From: Pseudodesulfovibrio sp.
Lineage (GTDB): Bacteria > Desulfobacterota > Desulfovibrionia > Desulfovibrionales > Desulfovibrionaceae
Length of the DNA: 64,000 nucleotides
Reading direction: 5' to 3'
Assembly: GCA_016744135.1 (NCBI GenBank)
Contig: JADGEX010000001.1
Location: 1,251,029-1,315,028 of the forward strand
Shown: positions 10,252 through 24,498 of the stretch, in pieces
Layout of the letters: each line of letters starts with the position of its first letter
Position numbering within the stretch: the stretch's first letter is position 1
The notes under the pieces: model-generated
The model's database searches: none
What the model was told of the DNA's origin: nothing
The model's input: the letters and a program-made list of their open reading frames with translations, nothing else
Translations under genes and position numbers: made by a program

Positions 10252-11313
10252 TCAGGAAGGAATTTCCTTATTCTCGACGGCCTCATATTCCTTGATAACT
10301 TTAATGACATATTCACCAAGATGCTGGGCAGAACTGATAAAACCAAGCACCTGAAAGAGACGTTGTGCACCGAAACGACTGGTCACGCCCTGTCGACGCA
10401 ATTCAATAAACCGTATTTCAATATTAGTCACAGCCTCTTCCAAACGTTTCGTGTCATGGGGAACTCCCATCCCGATGGCACGTAATGCGGTCGTGGTGGA
10501 TCGCGTCAATTCTGTCAGTTCCGGAGCAAGAATTATATCAAAGCCCACACCTTCCACCTGGTTCAACAAGGTGAGCATGGCCTGCAACCGTTCGAGCACA
10601 GAACGAAAAACACTGACCTGTGTCGAAAGCAGGTTGACGTCATCCCTGAAAAATCGCCGTTCCATGGAAAAAACCTTGTGGAACATCTCCTTATTCTTCT
10701 CGGTCGTGCCCGCAAAATCATCAAACAAATCAGGATCAGTCTTTTGTTGCAGAGAAAGAAAATTATTCATGAGCAACGTATACCGGACTGCCAATTGCCC
10801 GTATTGATGTTCCAAACGCTCACGCAATGCGGCGCCAGCCCTTCTGGGCCATAATATCACGGAAACAAGAAAGGCACAGGACACACCAACGCCGATCTCT
10901 GCCACTCTGGACAGGGTAAACAGTATACGATGCTCGTCGGTAAGACTGGTCAGATATACAATAGCCACCGTGATGGCCGCCATGCGAAAACGCACATTAT
11001 ACCGCGTCAGGTAAGCACACACCCCGGTACCGACAAATATACCCATCAAAGTATACATGGGCGTTGCCGGGAAAATGAGGATAAGCAAAATACCCATCCC
11101 CGCACCAATGGCGGTTCCGGTAAAGCGATACAGACACATGTGAATGGAGTCCGCCACATGGACCTGCATGACGATAACCGTGGTAATGACGGCCCAGTAA
11201 GCATATGGCACGCCCACAAAGCCGGATACGACATATGCGAGAACACTCGCCACCCCGACCTTGATACCGTGCCGGATGTGACTGCTTGCGATGATTCTTT
11301 TGATGTAGGACAT
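10252..11313 (-). CDS. FUSC family membrane protein
   Basis: This 353-aa protein has an N-terminal block of about six membrane segments (VPYAYWAVITTVIVM, then repeated hydrophobic helices) and a C-terminal helical cytoplasmic domain of about 180 residues. The first half matches the FUSC/aromatic acid exporter (YhcK/YccS-like) outline, with the usual RFTGTAIGAGMGILL motif. Such proteins are proposed efflux components; the substrate is unknown. It is alone in its transcription unit, convergent with lysE, with a terminator just downstream. Confidence 0.8.
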   Translation of the reverse strand: MSYIKRIIASSHIRHGIKVGVASVLAYVVSGFVGVPYAYWAVITTVIVMQVHVADSIHMCLYRFTGTAIGAGMGILLILIFPATPMYTLMGIFVGTGVCAYLTRYNVRFRMAAITVAIVYLTSLTDEHRILFTLSRVAEIGVGVSCAFLVSVILWPRRAGAALRERLEHQYGQLAVRYTLLMNNFLSLQQKTDPDLFDDFAGTTEKNKEMFHKVFSMERRFFRDDVNLLSTQVSVFRSVLERLQAMLTLLNQVEGVGFDIILAPELTELTRSTTTALRAIGMGVPHDTKRLEEAVTNIEIRFIELRRQGVTSRFGAQRLFQVLGFISSAQHLGEYVIKVIKEYEAVENKEIPS

Positions 11314-11474
11314 TTTTCTAGTCGGATTCGGGAATTATGGGCAGCGAAAATCGCCAACCGTTATGAACAACCGACGCACGGCTCTCACACATTGCGGTCA
11401 GAGGGTCAACCATTAAAGATCTTACAATATACATTCTCCGCACAATTGACACACATAACAAAAAGGGCTTTGGG

Positions 11475-12869
11475 CTATTTAAAGCTCCCGGCGTTCACAT
11501 CAAGCCGCTTGAGAATTTTCTGCAAAGCGACTCTGGACAGCCCACTCTGACGAGCGGCTTTGGAAACATTACCGCGTGTACCGGAGAGTAATTCTTCGAC
11601 ATATGTACGGGTGAAGTCATCCACCACTTTTTCCTTGGCATCCTTATAGGGCGTCAAACCCTGCGATTCATCGCCAGGAAGCCCTTCAAGACCTTCCACG
11701 AGACGAAGGTGAACCAGTTCCAAAGACTCACTGGAAGAAAAAACGGCCAATCGACGGATGAAATTCTGCAATTCCCGAACATTTCCGGGCCAATTTTTTG
11801 TGGTCAGATACGCCACGGCGTCTGGTGCCATGGCCTTTGGGTTCACCTTCATTTCTTCGCAGGAAATAGTCAAGAAATGGCGGGCGAGTATAGCAATGTC
11901 ATCATTACGGTCACGAAGTGCTGGCACATTCAGATTAAGAACATTAAGACGATAATAGAGGTCTTCACGGAAGCTGCCGTCCTTAATCTTCTCCTCAAGA
12001 GGCTGGTTGGTGGAGGCAAGAATACGCACGTCCACCGGAACGGTCTTGCTGGAACCAACTGGACGGATCTCTCCTTCCTGCAATGCTCGAAGTAACTTGG
12101 TCTGAATACCCGGAGAAATGTCACCGATTTCATCAAGAAGCAGAGTACCTCCGTCCGCTGAAACAAAAATGCCTTTGTGATCCCGGTCTGCGCCGGTGAA
12201 CGCCCCCTTGACGTGACCAAACAATTCACTTTCCAGCAATTGATCGGGAATAGCCGGACAATTGACCGTCAACAACGGCTTTCTGCTCCGTCCGCTCAAC
12301 TGATGGATGGTTCGGGCCACCAACTCTTTACCTGTCCCGGATTCTCCACGAATCAAAACGGTATATTCGGACTCGGCCACGGCTGCCACGCCATCTTTGA
12401 GCCGACGTATAGCAGAACTCTCACCCACGAATTCATTGGGACCGATCTGCTTGGCGAGCAATTCCTGAAGACGGGCGTTTTCCCCAAGAAGACGACTGCG
12501 TTCAAGTCCCCGTTCAACAACCTGAAACAGGTCTTTAGGCTCCACCGGTTTTGTCAGGAAATCGTAGGCCCCGATTTTTAACGCATCCACTGCGGTCTCC
12601 ACAGTCCCATAAGCAGTCAACATGACCACACTCATGTCAGGATGCATTTCTCTAGCCCGACGAAGTAATTCGACACCATCCATGCTCGGCATGTTCAAAT
12701 CAGTCAGCATCAAGCCAAAGACATCGTTTTCCAATGCAGCTATGGCCTCTGGCCCGGAAAGCACGGCCATGATATGTTCATCTGGATACTGTCTGCCCAG
12801 CAAACGAGCGAGTCCGGTGGCAAAATCCTTTTCATCATCAACGATGAGTATGCCTATGGCGTTTGTCAT
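11475..12869 (-). CDS. NtrC-type sigma-54 response regulator
   Basis: The 464-aa protein has a receiver domain (acidic DD at 11-12, phospho-acceptor Asp57 in LTDLNMPSMDG, Lys in TKPVEP), an AAA+ domain (Walker A GESGTGKE at 175-182, sigma-54 contact loop GAFTGAD at 222-228, then GNVREL) and a C-terminal Fis-type helix-turn-helix (NVSKAARQSGLSRVALQKIL). It activates sigma-54 RNA polymerase. Its ATG overlaps the kinase stop by 4 bases, so they form a two-component pair. The divergent yeiH promoter at 15509 is a strong sigma-54 site and is the obvious target. Confidence 0.93.
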   Translation of the reverse strand: MTNAIGILIVDDEKDFATGLARLLGRQYPDEHIMAVLSGPEAIAALENDVFGLMLTDLNMPSMDGVELLRRAREMHPDMSVVMLTAYGTVETAVDALKIGAYDFLTKPVEPKDLFQVVERGLERSRLLGENARLQELLAKQIGPNEFVGESSAIRRLKDGVAAVAESEYTVLIRGESGTGKELVARTIHQLSGRSRKPLLTVNCPAIPDQLLESELFGHVKGAFTGADRDHKGIFVSADGGTLLLDEIGDISPGIQTKLLRALQEGEIRPVGSSKTVPVDVRILASTNQPLEEKIKDGSFREDLYYRLNVLNLNVPALRDRNDDIAILARHFLTISCEEMKVNPKAMAPDAVAYLTTKNWPGNVRELQNFIRRLAVFSSSESLELVHLRLVEGLEGLPGDESQGLTPYKDAKEKVVDDFTRTYVEELLSGTRGNVSKAARQSGLSRVALQKILKRLDVNAGSFK

Positions 12870-15295
12870 TGTTCGCTCCGAGTGGAATCGCTGTTGACCG
12901 GAAGATGCACTGTAAAGACAGCACCATTATCATTTTCCATCTCAATGCTGCCGCCGATGTCCTGGGCCAATCCATAAACCACGGCCAACCCCAGCCCTGT
13001 CCCTTTACCCACTTCCTTGGTGGAAAAAAACGGATCGAACAACTTCAGCATGTCCCCTTCCGGGATACCTGGACCGTTATCTGCCACCCGAACATCAATG
13101 GTATCTGAATCAGATTTATAGTGTGCTGAAACAATAATATGCCCGACCTTTTTCGTCACCGCATCCAATGCATTTTTGAGCAAATTGGTAAGAATTTGCT
13201 CCACAGCCTGTTCATTGGTAATGATAGAAGGCAAACCGTCTTCGACTTCCGGCACGACTTCCACGCCCTTCTTCTCTGCTTGCACACGAAAGATGTTGAT
13301 GGCATCAGCGACAACCCTGCCCACATTCAAATCAACCGGCTCCGATTTCTTGGGACGCGCAAAATTGAGCAAATCCTGCAGAACAGTCTCGGCCTGCGAA
13401 GCATGCTTGATGATAATCTCGGCGTCAGAAGATATTTCCTGTCGAGACTCAGCTCCCCGCAGCAACTCGGCATAGCACTTGATAACACCCAACGGATTAT
13501 TAATTTCATGGGCCAACCCTGCGGCCAATTGACCGACAGTTGCCAACTTTTCACTCTGCTGCATAGTAGCAAGCATCCGCTTTTCCTGTGTCACATCACG
13601 CACATAAACAACACCATGTGCTTCTTTGGCAGCACCTTCCGCCACAGGAAAAACACTGATCGAAAAGGACCTGCCATCTGCGGTTTGCACCTCACGGGCC
13701 ATGGCCTCTCCATGTTCCAGCGAAGACTTCAGTGGACAATTCTCAAACACGCCGCCCTGCCTAAACAAAGTGGAACAGGCGGTGTCAGCCACGGCTCCCC
13801 CAAAGGACACGCACAAGGAGCGAGCGGCTTCATTAGCCAAAACCACACCGCAAGCGCCGTCCATAAGTAAAAGAGGATCACTGATGCCTTCGACAATCGC
13901 CTGGAGCATGTCTTTTTGACGAAGAAGATTGTGCAAGGCCGCCAGATTTTCCATGGCGATGCCAAGCTGCTGACCCAACGCCCGCAAAACGTTCCGGTCC
14001 TGATTCGTTATTATGGTTCCCTCATCCCAGATTAAACACAAAATTCCCTCGGAAGACGCATCACTGGCCCAGACCGGAATGTATGCCTTGCCCGGCTCAT
14101 AATACGGCTCAACTTCAGTAATAATTTCTTTCCAGTTATGAGGAAGATCGGGCTTGGGCGTCTCTTCGGGCCACGTATAATATGTCTGGGAGGCGAGCAT
14201 GCAGATAAAGCCGCCAAGACTGGCTCTGAACCGCTGCACAATAAGTGGCAAAGAGTGTTGCCACATCTGCCGTCGAGTATGACTTTTATTCAACCCATCA
14301 AGAAGCTGCACAAACAAACCGACATCCGAACGCCGTTCCTCGGCCTCAAGTTTCAATTCACCGGTACGGACCTCGACCATCTGCTCAAGATTCTCCGAGT
14401 GCTGACGCAACTGATAGTTCATCTCATGGACATGATCGCCAAGCTCTTCAAGCCCCTGAACAACCTCTTCTATTTCGTCAACATTTTCCAACTTTTCCAT
14501 AAATCCGAGTTCCTCGTCTTCCTGAAAAAGCTTCCGGAACTTGTCAGTCAACCTATGTAAGTTAGTCATGATAAGACGATTGAAAAAGATCTGAACCAAA
14601 GCAAAGAAAAGCAGCATGCCACCGCCATAGAGAGCGGCATAGCCGATGGTGGCTTCACGAATCTTCCCGACCGCTCCGTCAATAGGAACGCCGACAACGA
14701 CCAAACCAGCAATATCACCCAACGTATGACCGAATCCTCGCTCCGTTCCATACCGTTCAAGCAGGACAGGAGGAGAGTCCTCCGGCACGCCATGACACGT
14801 CATGCACGATTTTTTAAACTCCACAGGACGTGCCTTGACGAAAAACTCCTTACTATCAATCTTGCGGTACCCTTCCCAATATTCCTTACCCGGATTTTTC
14901 CTGAAATATGCCAGGAGTTCACGCTCACTGTCCTTGATTTCAAAGAGCGGATTACGCGCATTATCCGCTACCCGACGATAATAATACTCCGAATGACGCA
15001 AATTGAGCCGATCCATAATGGCTCGAGAAATATACGATGAAGACATGGCCTCGATAACAAACTCCCCTTCCGGCAAAGTCTGATACATTTTCGGCCTGAG
15101 TATTTCCCGCACATACCCCTGCACGCTGGACACCTGATTCAGCACAAGATCAGCCTTATCCTTGACCTGAGTATCCAGAAGTGAACTGAGATGAAAATAC
15201 AAACTCGAAGCGAAAAACAAGCCCAGCAAAAAAACGATGGTTCCCAATCCAAGAAGGAACTTGGCCTGAAGGTTTTTTGGTCCGAAATTACCCAT
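12866..15295 (-). CDS. Sensor histidine kinase with periplasmic c-haem (Tll0287-like) domain
   Basis: In this 809-aa kinase, TM1 spans about 13-36, followed by a periplasmic Tll0287/DUF3365-type domain with a c-type haem motif CMTCH at 164-168. TM2 spans about 217-239. A coiled region, a GAF-like segment (about 320-440), a PAS segment, HisKA ([20 protein letters not shown]) and an HATPase domain ([23 protein letters not shown]) follow. A covalently bound haem suggests redox or ligand sensing outside the membrane. The SD GGAG precedes ATG at 15295, and a GGGCG/CGCCC mini-hairpin abuts it. The cognate regulator follows with a 4-base overlap. Confidence 0.9.
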
Positions 15296-15371
15296 ATATT
15301 TCTCCGGGCGTTACGCCCATTTCATTCAAAATTCCACCGTCCGCAATGGTGGCACGCCCCTGAATCGTAGC

Positions 15372-15456
15372 GCACTTTTTACTTTTTTAACAACTTGCCT
15401 TCCCCGCACGCGAAAAGTGCAAACTCCACGTTAAAAACTGCTAACTCAAGTTAGCA
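15372..15456 (+). promoter_or_regulatory. Candidate enhancer region for the sigma-54 activator
   Basis: A perfect 18-base palindrome (TGCTAACT, CA, AGTTAGCA) lies at 15439-15456, 52 bases upstream of the -24 element. A second inverted pair, GCACTTTT at 15372-15379 and AAAAGTGC at 15413-15420, lies further up. Positions suit binding by an enhancer-binding protein such as the adjacent response regulator. The binding itself is inferred. Confidence 0.5.
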
Positions 15457-15508
15457 TATCAAACTGCATTGCAAAAAATAAATCAAGTAAAATCAGTAGC
15501 ATCTCTTT

Positions 15509-15523
15509 TGGCACGCACTTTGC
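15509..15523 (+). promoter_or_regulatory. Sigma-54 promoter of the yeiH cluster
   Basis: TGGCACGCACTTTGC matches the -24/-12 consensus (TGGCACG-N4-TTGC) at every defined base except the last optional A/T, and GG and GC are exactly 10 bases apart. The predicted start is near 15535, about 37 bases before the yeiH ATG. Confidence 0.88.
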
Positions 15524-15571
15524 CTTAGGGAAAGCCAGACCACACACAAAAAACCAAAGGAGAGGTTTGGT

Positions 15572-17212
15572 ATGGCTCAAGCAACTGTCGGACGTCCCGA
15601 CAACACACCCGTATGGATCATCAGTGGTATTCTACTGGCATACGGCGTTCTCGTTTCCTCGGGAGCACTGACTGGTCTTCTGACCACATTCAAAGTCCAT
15701 AAGGCAATGGACCTGATGCAGACCATGGCTTTCGTGGGCGGCGGACTTGGTGTCGCTACTGCGATGCTCAGGCAAGCACGTTGGAATAAACCCCTCAACA
15801 ACTTTGACACCTTTGTACTGGAAACCATTCCGGGCATTCTGTTCATTGTGGCCTTGGCCATGGGCATCCGCTGGTTTGCAGAGCCGATGGTCAAACTCGC
15901 AAGTTCAGCCATGGTTCCAGCCCTCGGCTTCAAGCTCTACAAGGTACTGAACCTGAACTATGTTGTCCTCGGTATTCTCGTCGGTATCATCATCACCAAC
16001 AGCTGGGGTATCCCAAAATTCGCAGCATCAGGCGTCAAAACCGCCCGCTTCGTGTTGAAGATGGGTGTTATCCTGCTGGGTGCCCGTTACTCCTTTGCAG
16101 AACTGGCAAAGCTGGGCATGGTTTCAGTCTGGATGATCGGCTTCTTTGTTCTGGGTACCGTATTCTTCGTCCTGTTCCTGGGTAAAGTTTTCAAACAACC
16201 TAAGACCATGACTGGCGTCCTGTCCGCAGGCATGGGTGTTTGCGGCGTATCCGCAACTGTTGCCTGCGCCCCGGTCGTCAAGGCCAAATGCTCCGAGATG
16301 GCCTACACCATCGGCACCATCCTCGGCTTTGGTATCCTGTGCATGTTCGTCTTCCCCACCGTTGGTAAAATCGCGGGCATGAACGCTACCCAGTTCGGCG
16401 CATGGGCCGGCACCGGCATCCTGAACTCTGCTCAGGTCGCTGCCGCCTGTCTCGCATTCAACGCTGTTGACATTAAGACCCTGAAAGTCGGTGAAATCTT
16501 CAACATCACCCGCGTTCTGTTCCTGCCCGTCATCGTTCTGGTGCTCGCCACATGGTACGGCAAGCAGTCCGGTCAAAAGTTGAGCTTCAAGGAAGTTGTC
16601 ATCGACAAGTTCCCCATCTTCATCATCGGCTTCCTTATCCTGTTCTTCATGTCCTCCCTGGGGCTGTTCTCACCAGCAGATCACTACAAGGGCAAATACC
16701 TCGACTTCAGCTACAACGAACGCACCGAAGTCACTCCTGAAGAACTGACCATACTGAAAGCTGCGGCTGTCGCAGGCATTCAAGGGCTTAACGTGCAGGA
16801 AACCGCATCGTTGGATAACCTTGTCAAACAGCACCAGATCGCCGGTAACTTCGACGATCGTGGCGACAAAACCAAGTTCGACACTGTGGCCCGTGAACGT
16901 ATGGCCGGTCTGGAATCCATGATCGCCCGTGCAAAGGGTGGCGAAGTGACGATTTCCACAGACGTCAAATCAGCACTCTCACACGCGATCAAGCAGGTTC
17001 ACAAAAAATCCAAGACTATTGTTACCCTGACCAACGCCATGATCTGGTTCTTTGCTTATGGTCTCATCGGCCTTGGCATGCAGATCACAGGCAAGTCCCT
17101 TGCTCAGGCAGGCGGCTGGCCGCTGGTCATGGGTGGTATCTCCGGCGTTGCCAAGGCGACCCTGTCCTTCATCGTCGTCATGTACTTCGTCAAGGACGTC
17201 GTCCTTCACTAA
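15572..17212 (+). CDS. YeiH/PSE family putative sulfur-oxyanion exporter with large insert
   Basis: The 546-aa membrane protein belongs to the putative sulfate exporter family (YeiH, UPF0324). Core motifs include ARFVLKMGVILLGARYSF and VLSAGMGVCGVSATVACAPV. YeiH proteins are usually about 340 residues; here an extra hydrophilic stretch of about 110 residues (about 370-480) sits before the last two membrane segments (about 490-540). Its charge and lack of hydrophobic runs suggest a soluble regulatory domain. The start has AAAGGAGAGG upstream, and the gene is first behind a sigma-54 promoter. The substrate (sulfate, sulfite, or sulfonate-derived anion) is not proven for the family. Confidence 0.85.
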   Translation: MAQATVGRPDNTPVWIISGILLAYGVLVSSGALTGLLTTFKVHKAMDLMQTMAFVGGGLGVATAMLRQARWNKPLNNFDTFVLETIPGILFIVALAMGIRWFAEPMVKLASSAMVPALGFKLYKVLNLNYVVLGILVGIIITNSWGIPKFAASGVKTARFVLKMGVILLGARYSFAELAKLGMVSVWMIGFFVLGTVFFVLFLGKVFKQPKTMTGVLSAGMGVCGVSATVACAPVVKAKCSEMAYTIGTILGFGILCMFVFPTVGKIAGMNATQFGAWAGTGILNSAQVAAACLAFNAVDIKTLKVGEIFNITRVLFLPVIVLVLATWYGKQSGQKLSFKEVVIDKFPIFIIGFLILFFMSSLGLFSPADHYKGKYLDFSYNERTEVTPEELTILKAAAVAGIQGLNVQETASLDNLVKQHQIAGNFDDRGDKTKFDTVARERMAGLESMIARAKGGEVTISTDVKSALSHAIKQVHKKSKTIVTLTNAMIWFFAYGLIGLGMQITGKSLAQAGGWPLVMGGISGVAKATLSFIVVMYFVKDVVLH

Positions 17213-17227
17213 AAGGAGAATTGAAAA

Positions 17228-17392
17228 ATGGCTGAAGATATCAAATGCAATGTCAACACTGATGATCAGGCGGAAAACGAAGAGCGCGCACTGTCCGTCT
17301 TCGCTTCCGAAAAAAGTGAAGATCTGACCGCCCTTGTGCTCGTCATGATCGTGACCTTCCTGGTCCTGCTGTTCACCAAGTGGATGGCCTAG
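17228..17392 (+). CDS. 54-aa single-pass membrane protein
   Basis: A short gene lies between yeiH and the stress protein. ATG at 17228 has AAAAGGAGAATTG upstream and TAG at 17390-17392. The product has an acidic N-terminal half (MAEDIKCNVNTDD, then more Glu/Asp) and one C-terminal membrane helix (LTALVLVMIVTFLVLLF) ending in KWMA. Strong ribosome binding, tight spacing (15 bases after yeiH) and hydrophobic pattern support a real gene. It could be a small subunit of the YeiH transporter. I do not recognise a family. Confidence 0.75.
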   Translation: MAEDIKCNVNTDDQAENEERALSVFASEKSEDLTALVLVMIVTFLVLLFTKWMA

Positions 17393-17412
17393 TAATCGAT
17401 ACGTAAACCTCG

Positions 17413-17451
17413 CCGTATACGGAGGGGGACGCATGTTCCCCTCCCATACGG
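17413..17451 (+). other. Intercistronic hairpin
   Basis: CCGTAT pairs with ATACGG (17413-17418 and 17446-17451), enclosing GGAGGGG and CCCCTCC arms. No T-run follows. In this position between two genes of one operon it could cap the upstream message and set different levels for the transporter and the stress protein. Confidence 0.5.
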
Positions 17452-17475
17452 AGATCAAAAAAAACGAAGACTGTC

Positions 17476-17919
17476 ATGAAGCATATACTTCTCGCAACAC
17501 ACGGCACCCCCGGCGCACGCAAAGCTGAAAAGCTGGCCCGCCAATGGGCAGACCAGTACGGCGCAAAAGTCACCGTCCTTTCAATCATCAATGAAGCATG
17601 GGGCGATATGACCTGCGACGACTGGTTGAATACCTCCACCACGCGTAATGTCTTCGGTTCCTATGTAGCGAGTGAAATCGCCAAGGAAATCGATACGGTC
17701 TGGGACCGTCTGCGCACGGATTTTGATGGGGTGGAACTCGATTTTCTCAGCAAAGGCGGCAAGCTCGACAACGTGCTGGCCGAAGCTGCTGTCAAAATCG
17801 AGGCCGATGTAGCAATCATGGGTGCCTGGCAGAAAGAACAGGCCCCCGGCTTCAGAGACCGCTTTGAAAACAAGCGTCTGCACCCGCAGATGCCATGCCC
17901 ACTGGTGGTGGCACCATGA
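17476..17919 (+). CDS. Universal stress protein (UspA) domain protein
   Basis: This 147-aa single-domain protein starts with HILLATHGTPGARKAEKLAR, typical of the Usp alpha/beta fold, followed by VTVLSIINE and a C-terminal ADVAIMGAW/PCPLVVAP segment. The usual ATP-binding signature G-x2-G-x9-G-S/T near the C-terminus is not clear (GAWQKEQAPGFRDRF instead), so it may not bind ATP. It belongs to the yeiH cluster, and the next gene starts within its stop codon. Confidence 0.85.
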   Translation: MKHILLATHGTPGARKAEKLARQWADQYGAKVTVLSIINEAWGDMTCDDWLNTSTTRNVFGSYVASEIAKEIDTVWDRLRTDFDGVELDFLSKGGKLDNVLAEAAVKIEADVAIMGAWQKEQAPGFRDRFENKRLHPQMPCPLVVAP

Positions 17920-18527
17920 CATACGCATCCGAAACCATAGACCGTCGAGACCGCGCTCACGCGGACGTTGAAGAACTCCCCAGACCCGACGTCTGGATGG
18001 AGACCAACCTTCCTTGGAACACAGCCTTCTGGAGCGACCTCAAAGGGAAAACCCTGATGAGACTCAACCCTCACTGGCATGTTGAAAAAGACAAAATCAG
18101 CGAAGGCTTCCCCGTGGAAGACGTTCTGGTGGAAGCCGAGTTCAGGGCAACCCCTGAACTAACAGCCACAGCGGACACCTTTCAGGCATCCTTCCCGGAA
18201 ATCGGCCTGACCCTATCTGCCCGCAAATGCGAAGACGGTGCCAACACGGCCCTTTCCTTCACCATGGACGAGGTAGAGAACTGCCCCTTCACAGCTGAAG
18301 ATGCCGGACGCACCATGCAATACTGGCTGCCCAGCCTGCGTGAATACTACCGACTGCACGAGTCCAACTCACTCAAACATCGCGCATGGCGTTTCTTCAT
18401 GAACAAAGTCATGCTGACCATGAACCCCACCCAGCGCAGAATCAGTGGCTTCATGTTCAAACTCACCGTCCTCGAATGCCTGTTCATCGTCATCCTTGGC
18501 GTGGGCTGGTTCTACTACGGAGCCTAG
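17916..18527 (+). CDS. Unrecognised C-terminally membrane-anchored protein
   Basis: This 203-aa protein starts at the ATGA overlap with the stress protein stop (17916-17919). The first 170 or so residues are hydrophilic and rich in Trp, Pro and acidic residues. A single hydrophobic helix (about 178-200, LTVLECLFIVILGVGWFYYG) anchors the C-terminus, so the N-terminal domain is probably cytoplasmic. I recognise no family or catalytic motif. Overlap with the preceding gene shows translational coupling and a shared role with the YeiH transporter cluster. Confidence 0.8.
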   Translation: MTYASETIDRRDRAHADVEELPRPDVWMETNLPWNTAFWSDLKGKTLMRLNPHWHVEKDKISEGFPVEDVLVEAEFRATPELTATADTFQASFPEIGLTLSARKCEDGANTALSFTMDEVENCPFTAEDAGRTMQYWLPSLREYYRLHESNSLKHRAWRFFMNKVMLTMNPTQRRISGFMFKLTVLECLFIVILGVGWFYYGA

Positions 18528-18536
18528 GAGAAAATC

Positions 18537-18833
18537 ATGCTTAAAAATTTCTTTCACCACTTTATTGTTGGCCTCGGCGCACTTGGATACCTGCTGGCAG
18601 TCCCGGTGTTGTTGTATCAATACCTCGGCCTCATGAACAACTGGCCGCACCTGTTCCTCAGCATCGTATATGATTCTGCCGGAGACTGGTGGCTGGATGT
18701 TAACTGGCAGGCTCCCGCTCTATGGATTGCCGTAGGCTTTATCGTCTTGGCCGCCGCGACCCACGCCTTCTTCCGACGCAACGACACGCTCGGATACAGA
18801 GAAGCTGAAGTTCCAAGCGCACACGGATTCTAA
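18537..18833 (+). CDS. Small two-helix membrane protein
   Basis: This 98-aa protein begins MLKNFFHHFIVGLGALGYLL, with one membrane helix at about 8-32 and a second at about 60-76 (LWIAVGFIVLAAATHAFF), ending in a short hydrophilic tail. TAGGAG lies upstream of ATG, 9 bases after the previous stop. It is probably a partner of the preceding anchored protein and YeiH. No family recognised. Confidence 0.75.
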   Translation: MLKNFFHHFIVGLGALGYLLAVPVLLYQYLGLMNNWPHLFLSIVYDSAGDWWLDVNWQAPALWIAVGFIVLAAATHAFFRRNDTLGYREAEVPSAHGF

Positions 18834-19013
18834 TTTTTATGATGTTCGGAAGATTGCCTCCTCCTTCTTTTCGAACACCCAAAAAACCTCATTGCCTCTC
18901 GAGGTTGGCACTCCGAGAAAGTTGCGGTATTCTTCACCCCAAAGCCGCAACTTCCCGGAGTCCCTCTCGTCCGACCCATTTGATCCAGACTCCGCCCAGC
19001 CCAAGGACATCAC

Positions 19014-20294
19014 ATGTGGAGCGCACTGGAAAACGCTGCTCTTCGAGAGAGCCTCCCTTCTCCGCTCAAACCGGCGCAGTCCATTCACGACATCCTTATA
19101 GCCGGACAATTGGACCGGGGCAGATACAACCTGCATCACCTCGGCAGACGCCGCTCCAAACCATATCTTCTCAAACAATTCTACAGCATCGACACAAACG
19201 CTTTTCTACGCTGGCAGAATGAAGCCCGATTCATTCCTCTACTCCCGACAGAAGGATACGCATGGCCCTGTGAAGAATGGCGTGGTGGACTGATCACCCC
19301 ATTTCCAGAGGGACTTCCGATTGATGAATGGCTTGCTCAAGGTGGACATCCTATGCAGACACGGCTTGAAGTCGCGGCCATGCTGGCCGGACAATTAGCA
19401 CGCCTCCATGCTTCCGGCATCGCACATAGATGCCTCTCACCCGCATGTGTTCGTATCGAGAAAAAAGGAATTGTCATCACGGATTTCGGCTCCGCCCGAT
19501 GTGAACAGTGGGATGATTTCTGGACGGATTCAAGCATGAGTCCGAACGACGCGACCTGTGCTTCCCCGGAATCACTCAAGGGCGAAGAATGCGGTTATGG
19601 TGAAGACATCCACGCGTTTGGCGCTATCCTTTATCTCCTGCTCGCTGGCAAAACAGCATTCAATTCCATCAAACTCATGCTGCGCCCGCTCTTTCCGGGA
19701 CAGATCCCGCCAGACAAACTCTCCACAACGGCCGACGTTCCTGATCCGATTCGGGCTCTTGCTGCAGCCTGCATGTCTCTCGCTCCGTCAGACAGACCGA
19801 GCATGGATGAAATTGCCAGACAAATGGCGCACACTTGTTCTCACCTTACGTTGGACAAAAAAAAGATTTCCATCCCTACAGGCAATGCTTCGACCAAAGA
19901 CAAAAAAAAGATTTTAGTCTTCGTGAGTGATGACAACCGATCCGTACCAATTTTCGACACAGCCTTGAAATTGGCCGAGGCCAAGCCATCCGTCTTTCTC
20001 TTTGTCGGCCTGATCCCCTACAACCTGCCAAGCGGCCACACCGAACGTTTCACAGGAAATCTTTTCAAGAAGATGAGCCAAGGGTTACTCCGGTGCAGGG
20101 GAGCCTCTCTCGCCTGGAGCTTGCGCGTACTCACAAGCGCTGACCCAGAAAAAACAGCAGTGGATTTTGTCAGGCAATACAGGCCTGATCTGATCCTCCT
20201 CGGCGAAAATGGAAAAAGAAACAAACGGACCATACGACGCGGCTTTCATACACATCTTGCCGCAGAGAATGTACGCATCCACTCCGTTCGATAA
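19014..20294 (+). CDS. Predicted pseudokinase fused to a universal stress protein-like domain
   Basis: This 426-aa protein has an N-terminal (about 30-270) Ser/Thr kinase-like fold: beta3 Lys54 (YLLK), a candidate alphaC Glu70, catalytic-loop HRCLSPAC (138-145), DFG at 157-159, an APE-like SPE at 184-186 and F-helix DIHAFG. In the HRDLKPEN position Asp is Cys140 and Asn is Cys145, so the key catalytic residues are missing, although the DFG Asp remains. From about 295 a Usp-like alpha/beta domain follows (KKILVFVSDDNRSVPIFDTA, PDLILLGENGK). It is at the end of the yeiH cluster, 180 bases after the previous gene. A role as a scaffold or ATP sensor is inference. Confidence 0.75.
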   Translation: MWSALENAALRESLPSPLKPAQSIHDILIAGQLDRGRYNLHHLGRRRSKPYLLKQFYSIDTNAFLRWQNEARFIPLLPTEGYAWPCEEWRGGLITPFPEGLPIDEWLAQGGHPMQTRLEVAAMLAGQLARLHASGIAHRCLSPACVRIEKKGIVITDFGSARCEQWDDFWTDSSMSPNDATCASPESLKGEECGYGEDIHAFGAILYLLLAGKTAFNSIKLMLRPLFPGQIPPDKLSTTADVPDPIRALAAACMSLAPSDRPSMDEIARQMAHTCSHLTLDKKKISIPTGNASTKDKKKILVFVSDDNRSVPIFDTALKLAEAKPSVFLFVGLIPYNLPSGHTERFTGNLFKKMSQGLLRCRGASLAWSLRVLTSADPEKTAVDFVRQYRPDLILLGENGKRNKRTIRRGFHTHLAAENVRIHSVR

Positions 20295-20384
20295 GACTCT
20301 ATGCGCTTCAAAGAAATGTCACAGAAGAACAATTGACTTTACCGGCACAACCTATTTGAATGTCCAACAAAAAAGGGAACTGCC

Positions 20385-20684
20385 ATGTTTATTATTTCGT
20401 TGACCTATATTTGTGACCTCACTGAAATCGACCGTTTTCTGGACGAACACGTTGCCTATCTAAAAGAAGAATACGCACGCGGTCATTTCATCGCGTCCGG
20501 CCGCAAGGACCCCAGAACCGGCGGTATAATTCTCGCCAAAGCCAAATCCCGTACCGAACTCGATACGATTCTCGCAAAAGATCCATTCCACCGAGAACAT
20601 CTTGCCAAATATGACATTCAGGAATTTATTCCGACCATGACAGCTCTAGGATTGGAAGCCCTACTTGACCTGCAGGCTGAGTAA
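20385..20684 (+). CDS. YciI family protein
   Basis: The 99-aa protein has the ferredoxin-like YciI fold: MFIISLTYICDLTEIDRFLDEHVAYLKEEY, then FIASGRKDPRTGGIILAKA. The conserved His (HVAYL) and Asp-Pro positions of the family are present. YciI-like proteins are small enzymes or chaperone-like factors with varied roles. SD AAAGGGAAC precedes ATG. It stands alone between the pseudokinase and an amidase gene. Confidence 0.85.
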   Translation: MFIISLTYICDLTEIDRFLDEHVAYLKEEYARGHFIASGRKDPRTGGIILAKAKSRTELDTILAKDPFHREHLAKYDIQEFIPTMTALGLEALLDLQAE

Positions 20685-20818
20685 AGCTCACAGCAACCAC
20701 ACGGAAGACTGTTTCGCAAAAAAATACACCCTCAACAAGTCAACTATTTCTTTTAATTGCAAACATCATGACTGCACTCTATGTTTAGAACCATTAATAC
20801 AAGCAAAGGAGTCCATAC

Positions 20819-21862
20819 ATGTTTCGTAAAATACACTTATTCGCACTTATAATCCTAACGCTTCTGCTTCAGGCAACCCCTGCCGTTTCCTGCACACGTT
20901 TCATATATACGGCTGACGACAACCAGGTGTTAACCGGCCGCTCCATGGACTGGCTGGAGGACCTGCACAGTGATCTATGGGCGTTCTCTCGCGGCATGGA
21001 ACGCGACGGTGGCGCGGGTAAAGGGTCCATTAAATGGACAGCAAAATATGGCAGTGTCATTGCCTCCGGGTACGACGCGGCCTCAGCAGACGGCATGAAT
21101 GAAAAAGGTCTGGTTGCCAACCTGCTCTATCTGGCTGAATCGGAATACGGCTCACTCAACAACAAGCCGGGGCTGTCCGTGGCTGCATGGGTACAATATG
21201 TACTTGATAATTACGCCACAGTGAATGAAGCCGTGGACTCCATACGCAAAGAACCATTTCGTATCGTGGATGCCAAACTCCCCAACGGCTCTGCTCCGAC
21301 TCTGCATATGGCCATTTCCGACCCGACCGGCGATTCCGCCATTTTCGAATACATCAAAGGCAAACTGACCATTCATCATGGCAAGCAGTTCAAAGTCATG
21401 ACCAACTCTCCAATATACGACAGGCAACTTGCACTGGATGATTATTGGCAGGAAATCGGTGGTCTGACCATGCTCCCCGGCACCAACAGAGCCAGTGACC
21501 GATACGTCCGCGCCAGCTTTTATGTAGATGCCCTGCCCAAGTTCAAAGACAATCGCATGGCCGTATCCGCCGCATTCAGTGTCATCCGCAATGTCTCTGT
21601 TCCTATCGGCATCACCACCCCGGATCATCCGAACATCTCCACCACTATCTGGCGCTCCGTCTCAGACCAGAAGAACCTCATTTATTATTACGAATCCGCT
21701 ATCTCTCCCAATATTTTCTGGATCGATTTGAAAAAAATCGATTTCAGCTCGACCCAAAAACCTCGAAAAATCAGCCTGCAAGGGCATCCGATCTTCGCTG
21801 GCGATGTGTCTGGTAATTTTGTTCCGACAGAACCTTTCAAGTGGATGGTTCCTGAGAAATAA
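20819..21862 (+). CDS. Linear amide C-N hydrolase (choloylglycine hydrolase/penicillin V acylase family)
   Basis: This 347-aa exported Ntn-hydrolase has a signal peptide (1-24, ending PAVS) followed by the nucleophile Cys25, which becomes the mature N-terminus. At Cys+16 is Arg41 and at Cys+19 Asp44 (TGRSMDW), as in bile salt hydrolases and penicillin acylases. Possible substrates are N-acyl amides such as acyl-homoserine lactones or conjugated acids. SD AAAGGAG precedes ATG. A strong terminator follows at 21884. A paralogue lies at 42668. Confidence 0.9.
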   Translation: MFRKIHLFALIILTLLLQATPAVSCTRFIYTADDNQVLTGRSMDWLEDLHSDLWAFSRGMERDGGAGKGSIKWTAKYGSVIASGYDAASADGMNEKGLVANLLYLAESEYGSLNNKPGLSVAAWVQYVLDNYATVNEAVDSIRKEPFRIVDAKLPNGSAPTLHMAISDPTGDSAIFEYIKGKLTIHHGKQFKVMTNSPIYDRQLALDDYWQEIGGLTMLPGTNRASDRYVRASFYVDALPKFKDNRMAVSAAFSVIRNVSVPIGITTPDHPNISTTIWRSVSDQKNLIYYYESAISPNIFWIDLKKIDFSSTQKPRKISLQGHPIFAGDVSGNFVPTEPFKWMVPEK

Positions 21863-21883
21863 ACGATTCAATTCCAATTAGGA

Positions 21884-21921
21884 GGCCCGAAAGAACAGTG
21901 TTCTTTCGGGCCTTTTCTTTT
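21884..21921 (+). terminator. Intrinsic terminator
   Basis: GGCCCGAAAGAAC at 21884-21896 pairs with its complement at 21900-21912 through a 3-base loop, followed by TTTTCTTTT. The perfect 13-bp stem ends the linear amide hydrolase transcript. Confidence 0.93.
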
Positions 21922-21948
21922 ATTCATGTTCAACTTGAACAATTCAAT

Positions 21949-23556
21949 TTAATCCAAGGAAGGCATCTTGACCTTTCTTTGTTTCATCAATTTTTTTGCC
22001 TGCTCAATGGTCCTAAATCGAGAAATTGACAAGGGACCACCATAAGACTCACTCTGAACGGGTCGAGGAGGATATTTAATAAAGCTAGCCATCACTTTTT
22101 CAAGTTCACTGGTCATGATGGGTGCGGCCCACGTTGTCTCAGTCTGAGAATTCATGAAGATATCAACTCGTTCCTGAGGGTCCATCATCAAATCGTAGAC
22201 CTGCGGTACTGTTGCCACATATTTTTCTGCACCGACCCATCCAAGTTGTGGAGCAGAATGTGGCGCACCCGGCATTGCACCATTATCACCACGCATATTA
22301 AAGACAAACTTTAGCCGTCCAACCCGAATAGCCCCTGGAGACAATTCTCGTTCAGTAAAATAAAACCAAGAATCCCGTTCAGATTTTCCCGACCCAAACA
22401 AAATTGGGGACATATCATAACTATCAAAAACAATCGGCTTGCCCTCACGGTCCTTCGTGGGCAATGAAATATCAGCCAATTGGGCAAATGTAGCCATGAA
22501 ATCCAAGCCTCCGACTATATCATGCGACTCGCTTCCAGCTTTGATTTTTTTAGGCCACCACGCTATTGCGGGGACTCTGCTTCCGGCTTCTCGATCCGTA
22601 CCTTTTGTGCCACGGAAGGGAGTATAACCGGCATCAGGAAGTACATCCTGCCATGCGCCATTATCCACAGTATAAAAAACTATCGTATTTTCCTGAATAC
22701 CCAAATCTTTAACTTTTTTCAGAATTTGACCAATATGGTGGTCCAGCTCCATCACACTATCAGCATAATCCCACTTGCCGGGAGATTTCCCCTGAAATTG
22801 TTTGGAAGGTAAATTAGGCTGATGATTCTTACCAAAATTCACACTCATAAAAAAAGGAGCATCGCCCTTTGCATATTTTTCCATCGACTTAAGGACGGTC
22901 TTGGTCATTTCAACATCAAGTTCGGCAATATTTTCATCAGTAATCTTCGCATACTCACGAGCAGGCTTACCGGCCTCGCCTTCAAGCAAACCAGTCGTGT
23001 TCTTCTTAAAAAACTCCCTCAACTTCGGGTCCATAGTTTTATGCCAACTGTCCATCGCATATGTATACGCATTGAGATGATACAAAAAAGTATTCCTCAT
23101 CTCATCATATCCATGGGCGATAGGGAGAGCATAATCGGATTCACCAAGATGCCATTTCCCGGCAAAAAAAGTTTTATATCCAGCTTTTTTAAGCACCGAA
23201 GCCAAAGTCCATTCAGCTTTGGGGAGTCCTCCACCTTGTCCCTGAAACGCAACCGTTGTCATTCCACTCCTGTTGGGGTAACGGCCAGTCTGCATGGCGG
23301 CACGCCCGGGCGTACAGCTTGGTTGGCCGTAAAAAGACCAAAATTGCATACCCTCGTTAGCCATCGTATCAAGATTTGGTGTCGGCATTCCGCGCCCCAC
23401 ACCTCCACCGTAAACGCCAAAATCTCCCCACCCTGTATCATCAGATACGAGAAGAATTATATTTGGTTTTTGAGCGGCATCAGCCATTGGACTGCCTCCG
23501 AAGAAGAAAAAAAAGGACGCAAATAAAAAAACAATAAGAGAACAGACTCTTTTCAT
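21949..23556 (-). CDS. Secreted arylsulfatase-type sulfatase
   Basis: This 535-aa protein has a signal peptide (ends about ADA at 28). The metal site begins with LLVSDDTGWGD (Asp39/Asp40). The sulfatase signature CTPGR (Cys81, in PSCTPGRAAMQTGR) carries the cysteine that is converted to formylglycine. In an anaerobe this needs the radical-SAM sulfatase-maturating enzyme, which is not in this window. The SD GGAGGT lies 7 bases before the ATG at 23556; a longer frame begins at 23592 but has no such site. The outer membrane protein gene lies upstream in the same orientation. Confidence 0.9.
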   Translation of the reverse strand: MKRVCSLIVFLFASFFFFFGGSPMADAAQKPNIILLVSDDTGWGDFGVYGGGVGRGMPTPNLDTMANEGMQFWSFYGQPSCTPGRAAMQTGRYPNRSGMTTVAFQGQGGGLPKAEWTLASVLKKAGYKTFFAGKWHLGESDYALPIAHGYDEMRNTFLYHLNAYTYAMDSWHKTMDPKLREFFKKNTTGLLEGEAGKPAREYAKITDENIAELDVEMTKTVLKSMEKYAKGDAPFFMSVNFGKNHQPNLPSKQFQGKSPGKWDYADSVMELDHHIGQILKKVKDLGIQENTIVFYTVDNGAWQDVLPDAGYTPFRGTKGTDREAGSRVPAIAWWPKKIKAGSESHDIVGGLDFMATFAQLADISLPTKDREGKPIVFDSYDMSPILFGSGKSERDSWFYFTERELSPGAIRVGRLKFVFNMRGDNGAMPGAPHSAPQLGWVGAEKYVATVPQVYDLMMDPQERVDIFMNSQTETTWAAPIMTSELEKVMASFIKYPPRPVQSESYGGPLSISRFRTIEQAKKLMKQRKVKMPSLD

Positions 23557-23631
23557 GCCACAGACCTCCGGTTTATGATATTGACATCCCAAAAAACTCC
23601 ATCTTAATCAGTCAAACGCATTAACAAAATC

Positions 23632-24498
23632 TCATTCCAAAAACTGCAGGTTCAAGCCTAAAAATACCTGCCATTTTTCTTGATGGTCTCCACGCCTTGC
23701 GGCCGATATTTGAGGTTCCACAAAAAAATTGTAGACGACAGACCCTTTCTTAATAACCTGACCGATTCCTATGCCCACCGGAATATTATAATCCCCGCTT
23801 TGCAGGTTATAATCGAAGATAGGCGCAGCCCGTAAATATGTTCCACCTCCCAACTGATAAAAACCGAAAGGCTGAAAGGCAGCCACATTCACATCAGCTC
23901 GATCATCTTTACCCGCAAAACTATGCTGCCAGCTCAATAGATAGCCATACTGAACCGTATGTGACTCTGCATTAAACAAGACATTGACCAACCCGGCAGA
24001 CCATTTTTCACTTCCGAGTTCACTTTTTGAAGCGGTCGGCAAAGTGATTTGAGGCCCAATACCAAAACTGATTGCAGGGTCGCCGGTATCTAAGAGATAG
24101 GCTGCAAACATATTCAAATCACCCAACCCGTTTTCATTACTAAGACTAGATGAAGTTGGCATGGAGTTAACAGGCAACGACGCTCTCAAAAGCCATGGAG
24201 TCTCCGCGACTGAAAAAGGCTTGGCATACCGCAACCAAAACTGATTGGCGGGATCATCTGAGTTGGAAATATCGCCTATGAAATAATTTTGAATATTAAA
24301 AGCAGTCATCTTAGCCAAAGGATTATTGGCCTGGGCGGTAGCAGCAGCTTTCTCTTTTGTATCGCTAACAACGGTTCCGGCAGGCTGTTGCTCGTTGGCA
24401 TGGACAAAAGGAACAACCAAAAGAGAAACATACAACACAAAGGACACCAAACCAACTACTGATGTTTTGCATTGAGAAAACCGTAGGTTCACAATCAT
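23632..24498 (-). CDS. Putative outer membrane beta-barrel protein
   Basis: This 288-aa protein has a signal peptide (about 1-35) and then alternating hydrophobic and polar strands ([31 protein letters not shown]), typical of porin-like barrels of the DUF/'neuromedin U' annotation class. It ends in Phe-Leu-Glu rather than a terminal aromatic residue. The start ATG at 24498 has GGAGG upstream; the frame opens earlier at 24564 without a site. It probably forms an operon with the sulfatase and may let the sulfated substrate pass the outer membrane. Confidence 0.75.

Follow-up and report, generated by a model that had tools for sequence, protein, structure and literature searches.

Sulfate-reducing bacteria produce toxic sulfite as a central respiratory intermediate. 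In Salmonella, the transporter YeiH is the main sulfite-resistance factor, and deletion of yeiH causes a growth defect that is specific to sulfite and not seen with sulfate (PMC12880088). A survey of the open-licence literature, covering titles and abstract openings, found no dedicated sulfite exporter with a known sensor in sulfate reducers. The closest described system to the locus reported here is DVU0539–DVU0545 of Desulfovibrio vulgaris Hildenborough, in which response regulator and histidine kinase genes lie divergent from genes for a universal stress protein (Usp), a transporter of the putative sulfate exporter (PSE) family, a 133-aa one-helix protein, and another Usp (PMC3333781, PMC10102598, PMC4641369). 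In E. coli, the DVU0539 regulator acts as an activator of the DVU0542 promoter (PMC3333781, PMC10102598), and the operon belongs to the sigma-54 regulon, for whose TSUP and PSE transporters the authors report having no substrate data (PMC4641369). In the parts covered here, papers on the D. desulfuricans nitrate/nitric oxide (NO) transcriptome (PMC5701242) and on LurR (PMC6456213) do not describe the operon beyond naming DVU0539. We analyzed a 64,000-nucleotide stretch (hereafter, the window) of a Pseudodesulfovibrio sp. genome of 3.97 Mb and found that it carries a long-form variant of this system, consisting of a YeiH-family transporter gene with an insert (gene A), four closely spaced accessory genes (B–E), a frequent neighbor (F), and a divergent kinase/regulator pair.

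An earlier sequence-only reading of the window had presented A–F as an undescribed six-gene cluster. All six open reading frames (ORFs) are present at their positions, and the cluster is real, deeply conserved, and wider than first described. "Undescribed" holds for the insert and for genes D, E, and F, which do not appear in the portions of the published accounts covered here; the short-form counterpart, DVU0539–DVU0545, is already in print. The six-gene extent had left out the kinase/regulator pair (11475–15295), which accompanied the cluster in every one of the 24 wide long-form loci. The sigma-54 promoter and the START-like fold of D, both described below, were likewise absent from the earlier reading. 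The response regulator, histidine kinase, A, B, and C were each found in all 24 of these loci, E in 23, and an F-like gene in 17; D was also present in all 24, by construction, as most loci had been found with D as bait. The kinase/regulator pair was divergent from the YeiH operon in 23 loci, while in L108 it lay downstream on the same strand.

Evidence independent of the D bait came from searches with A and with B in a family sample (149 genomes), with the insert in an order sample (247), and with B in a phylum sample (395); a genus sample (36) was also used, and all of these are samples of the respective groups. Within the family, D matched in nine genomes and A in 98, with full-length A matches in the same nine; among the matches listed, those outside the nine covered the YeiH core alone. 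B matched in these nine genomes and, weakly, in one more (G134), where the match also adjoins a YeiH gene (locus L028). D was present in 18 of the 36 genus genomes. At the order level, D was found in 23 genomes, and a search with the A insert alone returned the same 23 with zero discordant cases, which argues that the association is not due to chance. Across the phylum, D occurred in five of 395 genomes including its own, one of the five being a fragment with a stop codon. A scan of named genome contigs gave seven loci, including metagenome-assembled genomes of Desulfobacterales and Nitrospirae in which A, B, C, and D are consecutive and in the same order. Thus, the co-occurrence check proposed in the sequence-only reading was run and showed that the gene set stays together in related genomes, the opposite of the first of the two outcomes that the reading had named as refuting it.

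We next considered B, for which the sequence-only reading had proposed a small membrane peptide. A single hydrophobic helix is indeed present, and the core NEERALSVFxSE(K/R)xEDLxAL together with this helix was almost invariant. B, D, and E gave nothing above cut-off in Pfam or NCBIfam. In the phylum sample, the B profile matched at 10 places in nine genomes, and a YeiH gene adjoined every one of them; as four places had been used to build the profile, the independent test is six of six new places. Because the phylum-wide matches lie exclusively beside YeiH genes, B is probably a dedicated small subunit of the YeiH transporter.

Homologues of B were also found after the short-form YeiH of other genera, in 20 of 21 loci (L021–L040, with L052 and L053 as wider fetches of two of them; L041 was the miss). 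Their profile E-values ranged from 9e-6 to 8e-3, with motif and position in agreement; 18 were called at 129–133 aa, and two ORFs were longer through an upstream start. In all eight short-form B proteins submitted to Pfam (L052, L023, L028, L027, L035, L030, L051, and L038), a biotin/lipoyl-like barrel-sandwich domain followed the helix, each with at least one match over the cut-off. A strict exclusivity between the insert of A and the barrel-sandwich domain of B was ruled out by L106 and L107, where a short YeiH stands with a naked B and with D. In these two loci, which also carry Usps, and in L137 and L138, the gene next to the naked B encodes a YeiH of ~430–445 aa whose first helix is followed by a long charged stretch.

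Gene A is a member of the PF03601 family (TC 2.A.98; 162.7 bits; cut-off, 24.5) and falls outside the TIGR00698 YeiH subfamily (92.9 bits; cut-off, 232.6). Its AlphaFold model was moderately confident, with a predicted local distance difference test (pLDDT) score of 75.9. A sequence search returned no relative in the PDB, and Foldseek gave weak rows alone (CitS, NhaP, PIN, and ASBT types, citrate symporters at the top), none with E <0.001. The proposal that A carries a soluble insert was borne out, as residues from about 366 to 485 are missing from the short YeiH encoded beside the same type of regulator. Hydropathy alone did not decide the membrane side of this insert. A published analysis assigns PSE proteins to the CPA/AT superfamily and gives them 9 or 11 helices, starting from an N-terminus on the inside (PMC8396727). 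Because of this published topology, the C-terminus of A is expected to be periplasmic, and counting back from it would place the insert in the periplasm as well.

We then examined the control region. Among sequences with a GG/GC core, TTGGCACGCACTTTGCC upstream of A gives the best sigma-54 match of the window, agreeing at 12 of 13 positions, and ends 47 bp before the start of A, with the palindrome TGCTAACTCAAGTTAGCA lying further upstream. Sigma-54 sites scoring ≥9 were found upstream of A in 22 of the 24 loci, compared with 161 of 2327 background tiles, and a palindrome with ≥10 of 12 consensus positions in 22 loci, compared with 48 tiles. At a score of ≥9 the palindrome occurred in 262 tiles, and so is common singly, as is the sigma-54 element. 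The two together, each scoring ≥9 and 65–85 bp apart, were found in 22 of 24 upstream regions and in only one of the 2327 tiles from the same sequences, with thresholds fixed after the loci had been inspected. The spacing was 69 bp in four loci and 77–82 bp in 18, a difference of about one helical turn. The palindrome consensus was derived from nine loci, several of them close relatives; 13 of the remaining 15 then had ≥10 of 12 positions. This 2327-tile control, a stricter version of an earlier background (43 and 31 of 2380), strengthens the promoter prediction. Sigma-70 promoters showed no excess (two found versus 3.3 in shuffled sequences). Both elements were also present in five of the 21 short-form loci (L031, L034, L036, and L037, of one genus, at 82 bp, and L021 at 80 bp), suggesting that this control logic extends to at least some short forms. 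With the kinase/regulator pair in all 24 wide loci and both elements in 22, the proposal of a regulated, membrane-associated gene set was supported.

The sensor kinase of the pair belongs to the Tll0287/DUF3365 (sCache_heme) family, with PF11845 and a CxxCH motif, and its PDB sequence match was Tll0287 itself (5b82; E 8.4e-6). CxxCH was present in 29 of 29 aligned kinases, including those of L050–L054, five loci with either an insert-free YeiH or one of a different type. The His and Cys residues conserved in at least 28 of the 29 aligned sensor regions were those of CxxCH alone. Nitrite or NO blocks sulfite reductase. Tll0287-type domains bind heme c, and one that is fused to a signaling domain holds NO tightly, according to a 2026 preprint (PMC12889525).

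In L105, a phylum-level relative, a 571-aa protein encoded two genes after F (L105:10894-12609) has a Tll0287 heme-c domain (E 5.6e-37) fused to a Hanks-type kinase (E 2.1e-24). In L054, from the same genus as the window and a genome without D, a distant YeiH-like gene of ~583 aa (L054:7515-9266) lies near a homologous heme-type kinase/regulator pair.

Table 1. Features of the YeiH cluster and its control region (window coordinates; E-values from Pfam)
Feature	Position	Strand	Description	Evidence
Response regulator	11475–12869	-	NtrC type, 464 aa	Receiver PF00072, sigma-54 AAA+ PF00158, Fis HTH PF02954
Sensor histidine kinase	12866–15295	-	809 aa; periplasmic Tll0287/DUF3365 heme-c Cache, HisKA, HATPase	PF11845 E 1.7e-35
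Heme-c attachment motif	14792–14806	-	CMTCH, kinase residues 164–168	
Palindrome	15439–15456	+	TGCTAACTCAAGTTAGCA, candidate response-regulator enhancer site	
Sigma-54 promoter	15508–15524	+	TTGGCACGCACTTTGCC, predicted -24/-12 element	
Gene A	15572–17212	+	YeiH/PSE family, long form, 546 aa	PF03601 E 1.3e-47
Insert of A	16667–17026	+	Residues about 366–485 (120 aa), helical	Not in short-form YeiH
Gene B	17228–17392	+	54-aa single-helix peptide, VFxSE(K/R)xED motif	
Gene C	17476–17919	+	Divergent Usp family, DDWLN motif	PF00582 E 2.3e-5
Gene D	17916–18527	+	203 aa; predicted START/SRPBCC-like domain (residues 23–153) and C-terminal membrane anchor (178–196)	
Gene E	18537–18833	+	98-aa two-helix membrane protein; GDWWLD loop; relatives with YREPxxxSQPGF-type tail	
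Gene F	19014–20294	+	426 aa, degenerate Ser/Thr kinase with HRC in place of HRD	Partial kinase domain, E 1.2e-11

The layout of the cluster is given in Table 1. As the sequence-only reading had noted, the first five genes are tightly packed; C and D overlap by 4 bp, and gaps were comparable across 23 fetched loci (A–B, −2 to 63 bp; B–C, 57 to 205; C–D, −49 to 2; D–E, 5 to 38). F was rejected as a firm operon member on account of the 180 bp that separate it from E and its absence from seven of the 24 loci. Genes beyond the cluster were rare across the wide loci (YCII type in three and choloylglycine-hydrolase type in four), and we therefore set the boundaries from the regulator gene to E, with F as a frequent neighbor. 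An all-against-all comparison of 24 sources (23 loci plus 25 kb of the window) found no outside flanking family in more than three of them, with ORFs picked greedily so that real genes may have been missed. One unlabeled component found in 15 loci overlapped cluster genes on the opposite strand where inspected and was taken as an antisense artifact. Deducing the substrate from neighboring genes was dropped, as no outside family exceeded three of 24 sources. Downstream of the cluster, the window encodes a choloylglycine-hydrolase family protein (20819–21862; PF02275 E 1e-48), with homologues in four of the 24 loci, and a sulfatase (21949–23592; PF00884 E 4.1e-50). Rfam gave no match in 11000–24000.

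Among the accessory proteins, D is predicted to have a START/SRPBCC-like helix-grip fold, a first structural guess for this protein, and its predicted tail anchor agrees with the soluble, C-terminally anchored domain of the sequence-only reading; the two-helix architecture of E was likewise retained. The stress-type nucleotide sensing proposed for the cluster was not supported. The canonical ATP motif of Usps is G-2x-G-9x-G(S/T). This motif was found in none of the 24 C proteins, a weak test since the same pattern also missed five of six other Usp-like proteins, and F has lost a catalytic residue.

The view of F as a pseudokinase held: the Asp of its HRD motif is Cys in the window (HRCLSPACV), which is not the motif of an active Hanks-type kinase. 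In the group of 14 near F proteins (the window, L042–L047, L110, L111, L114, L116, and L118–L120), 13 have another residue in place of this Asp; the one that retains it, L044, is without the Lys and Asn that follow. By contrast, the distant F proteins of L105, L108, and L109 (three of three) have intact HxDLKPEN and DFG motifs. A gene for a calcineurin-type phosphoesterase adjoins F in exactly these three loci (L105:10134-10874, L108:9888-10601, and L109:5178-5948) but a scan of the window and of the 29 remaining fetched loci, which included loci with and without F and some short ones, did not find it elsewhere. From these three cases, a lost kinase/phosphatase pair of F and the phosphoesterase is suggestive, and F looks like a retired, decaying kinase from a control layer once based on phosphorylation. 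F thereby documents a kinase losing its catalytic residue within a conserved gene neighborhood. The proposed kinase-like/Usp fusion stood only for its kinase part, as Pfam did not detect the Usp half in the window; a Usp-like C-terminal half was detected in the distant L105 homologue (E 4.4e-6), and that of the window protein is possibly Usp-like too.

Sequence analysis gave the gene content and linkage of the cluster, its promoter architecture, the family of the sensor, and a predicted fold for D; the contacts of B, C, D, and E with A, the binding of the regulator to the palindrome, the side of the insert, and the direction and substrate of transport are inferred. The periplasmic c-type-heme Cache kinase would phosphorylate the NtrC-type regulator, which would bind the palindrome and activate the sigma-54 promoter. 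The operon product would be a membrane complex built on the YeiH/PSE transporter A and its dedicated single-helix subunit B. In the long form, A would carry a periplasmic helical insert and a cytoplasmic layer of the Usp C, the tail-anchored START-fold protein D, and often the pseudokinase F, with E in the membrane. On sensing NO or a redox disturbance liable to stop sulfite reduction, the heme sensor would switch on the transporter as a safety valve through which sulfite, or a closely related small oxyanion or sulfonate, is exported. By analogy with Salmonella, sulfite or such a relative is the most likely exported substrate, and the protection against sulfite suggested in the sequence-only reading is plausible, although A scores below the TIGR00698 YeiH cut-off. 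We consider this reading, an inducible sigma-54/heme-sensor operon making a YeiH-based safety valve, to have an even chance of being correct.

Several points weigh against it. The physical interactions and the substrate are reached by inference, and C and F may act elsewhere. L105 and L108 have no recognizable sigma-54 site upstream of A, and in 16 of the 21 short-form loci the two elements do not occur as a pair with that spacing. NO sensing is extrapolated from a single protein, of P. azotoformans, described in a preprint. The stimulus may be metabolic, since lactate genes are among the targets of DVU0539 (PMC3333781). Finally, the mutant phenotypes of D. vulgaris on molybdate are mixed: the histidine kinase DVU0540 and the first Usp, DVU0542, are needed, and DVU0543–DVU0545 are detrimental (PMC10102598). 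A benefit from transporter disruption is not what a simple protective exporter would predict, unless molybdate enters through it or its expression carries a cost.

The same phenotypes fit a transporter that admits molybdate, and the complex and its control could be as described above with molybdate, a sulfate analogue, or a similar oxyanion as the substrate, possibly imported. However, sulfate reducers possess other oxyanion importers. In addition, the Salmonella defect is sulfite-specific, and the authors of the molybdate study call the roles of these genes unclear (PMC10102598); we regard a molybdate-type substrate as unlikely. The contact with lactate metabolism would instead suggest a transporter for a small carboxylate or sulfonate (lactate or pyruvate overflow, isethionate, or sulfolactate) acting as part of carbon control. 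DVU0539 binds the promoters of the lactate operon and lactate permease (PMC3333781), the regulon is classed with lactate metabolism and transport in the sigma-54 regulome paper (PMC4641369), and the citrate symporter family, to which YeiH is related (PMC8396727), also supplied the top, weak Foldseek rows. Yet DVU0539–0545 transcripts showed a negative correlation with the lactate genes and were not measured in regular growth (PMC3333781), and, within the limits of the greedy ORF picking, no flanking family recurs in more than three of the 24 sources compared. We consider this explanation quite unlikely.

It could also be that the genes are neighbors sharing a promoter alone, with B–F serving a general envelope-stress response rather than the transporter. 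Usp, START, and kinase-like proteins are indeed generic, F is missing from seven of the 24 loci, and in distant loci C is only 36–61% identical compared with 67–82% for A. The distribution of B and D is harder to accommodate: B was found exclusively beside YeiH, in other families of the phylum as well, its fused form adjoins the short YeiH, and the insert and D are present or absent together across 247 genomes. We consider a shared promoter alone improbable. The strongest new claims are B as a transporter subunit, the START-fold protein D that is present or absent with the insert, and the heme-sensor/sigma-54 wiring; no account of B as a subunit or of D was found in the open-licence literature at the level of titles and abstract openings. 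More broadly, many PF03601 transporters might be two-part, comprising a YeiH large subunit and a single-helix subunit (VFxx(D/E)(K/R)xED) that is either naked (54 aa) or fused to a periplasmic barrel-sandwich domain. The naked form would go with insert-bearing YeiH in this order, the long form would be gated from inside by START, Usp, and a retired kinase, and heme-switched NO or redox signals would lead to sulfite export in sulfate reducers; we hold this generalization tentatively, with somewhat less than even confidence. The locus supplies parts open to testing, from the heme-type sensor and the predicted promoter to the transporter and what is probably a new subunit of it, and it gives a frame for the unexplained molybdate phenotypes of DVU0539–0545.

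The probable small subunit has a parallel in oxaloacetate decarboxylase, where OadG is a small one-helix partner. The large subunit, OadB, belongs to the same CPA/AT superfamily as A (PMC8396727); the biotin/lipoyl-like fold of the short-form B is a further point of resemblance, and the comparison is an analogy alone. Like the Tll0287/DUF3365 sCache_heme sensors, the kinase of the window has PF11845 and CxxCH within a histidine kinase. A Cys ligand has been reported for Tll0287 (PMC12889525), whereas the kinases described here conserve no second Cys and thus keep no candidate for this ligand. The Salmonella YeiE/YeiH system shares the PSE/PF03601 family (PMC8396727) and a regulator gene divergent from the transporter (PMC12880088). 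It differs in using YeiE, a sulfite-binding LysR regulator, where the window has the heme kinase and sigma-54 control, and no B, C, D, E, or F is mentioned in the parts of that account covered here (PMC12880088).

With DVU0539–DVU0545, the window shares a divergent histidine kinase and response regulator, sigma-54 control, a PSE/YeiH transporter, a one-helix protein, and a Usp. The defining features of that system recur in the long-form loci: the divergent kinase and sigma-54 regulator, a sigma-54 promoter with a candidate activator site (22 of 24), and B with C (24 of 24). Judging from published descriptions rather than sequences, DVU0544 would fit the 129–133-aa B homologues in both size and position. 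Compared with the D. vulgaris operon, the YeiH of the window is longer, exceeding the short form by N-terminal helices and the 120-aa insert, B has 54 aa and no barrel-sandwich domain, no Usp gene precedes YeiH, and the gene set is extended by D, E, and, in most cases, F.

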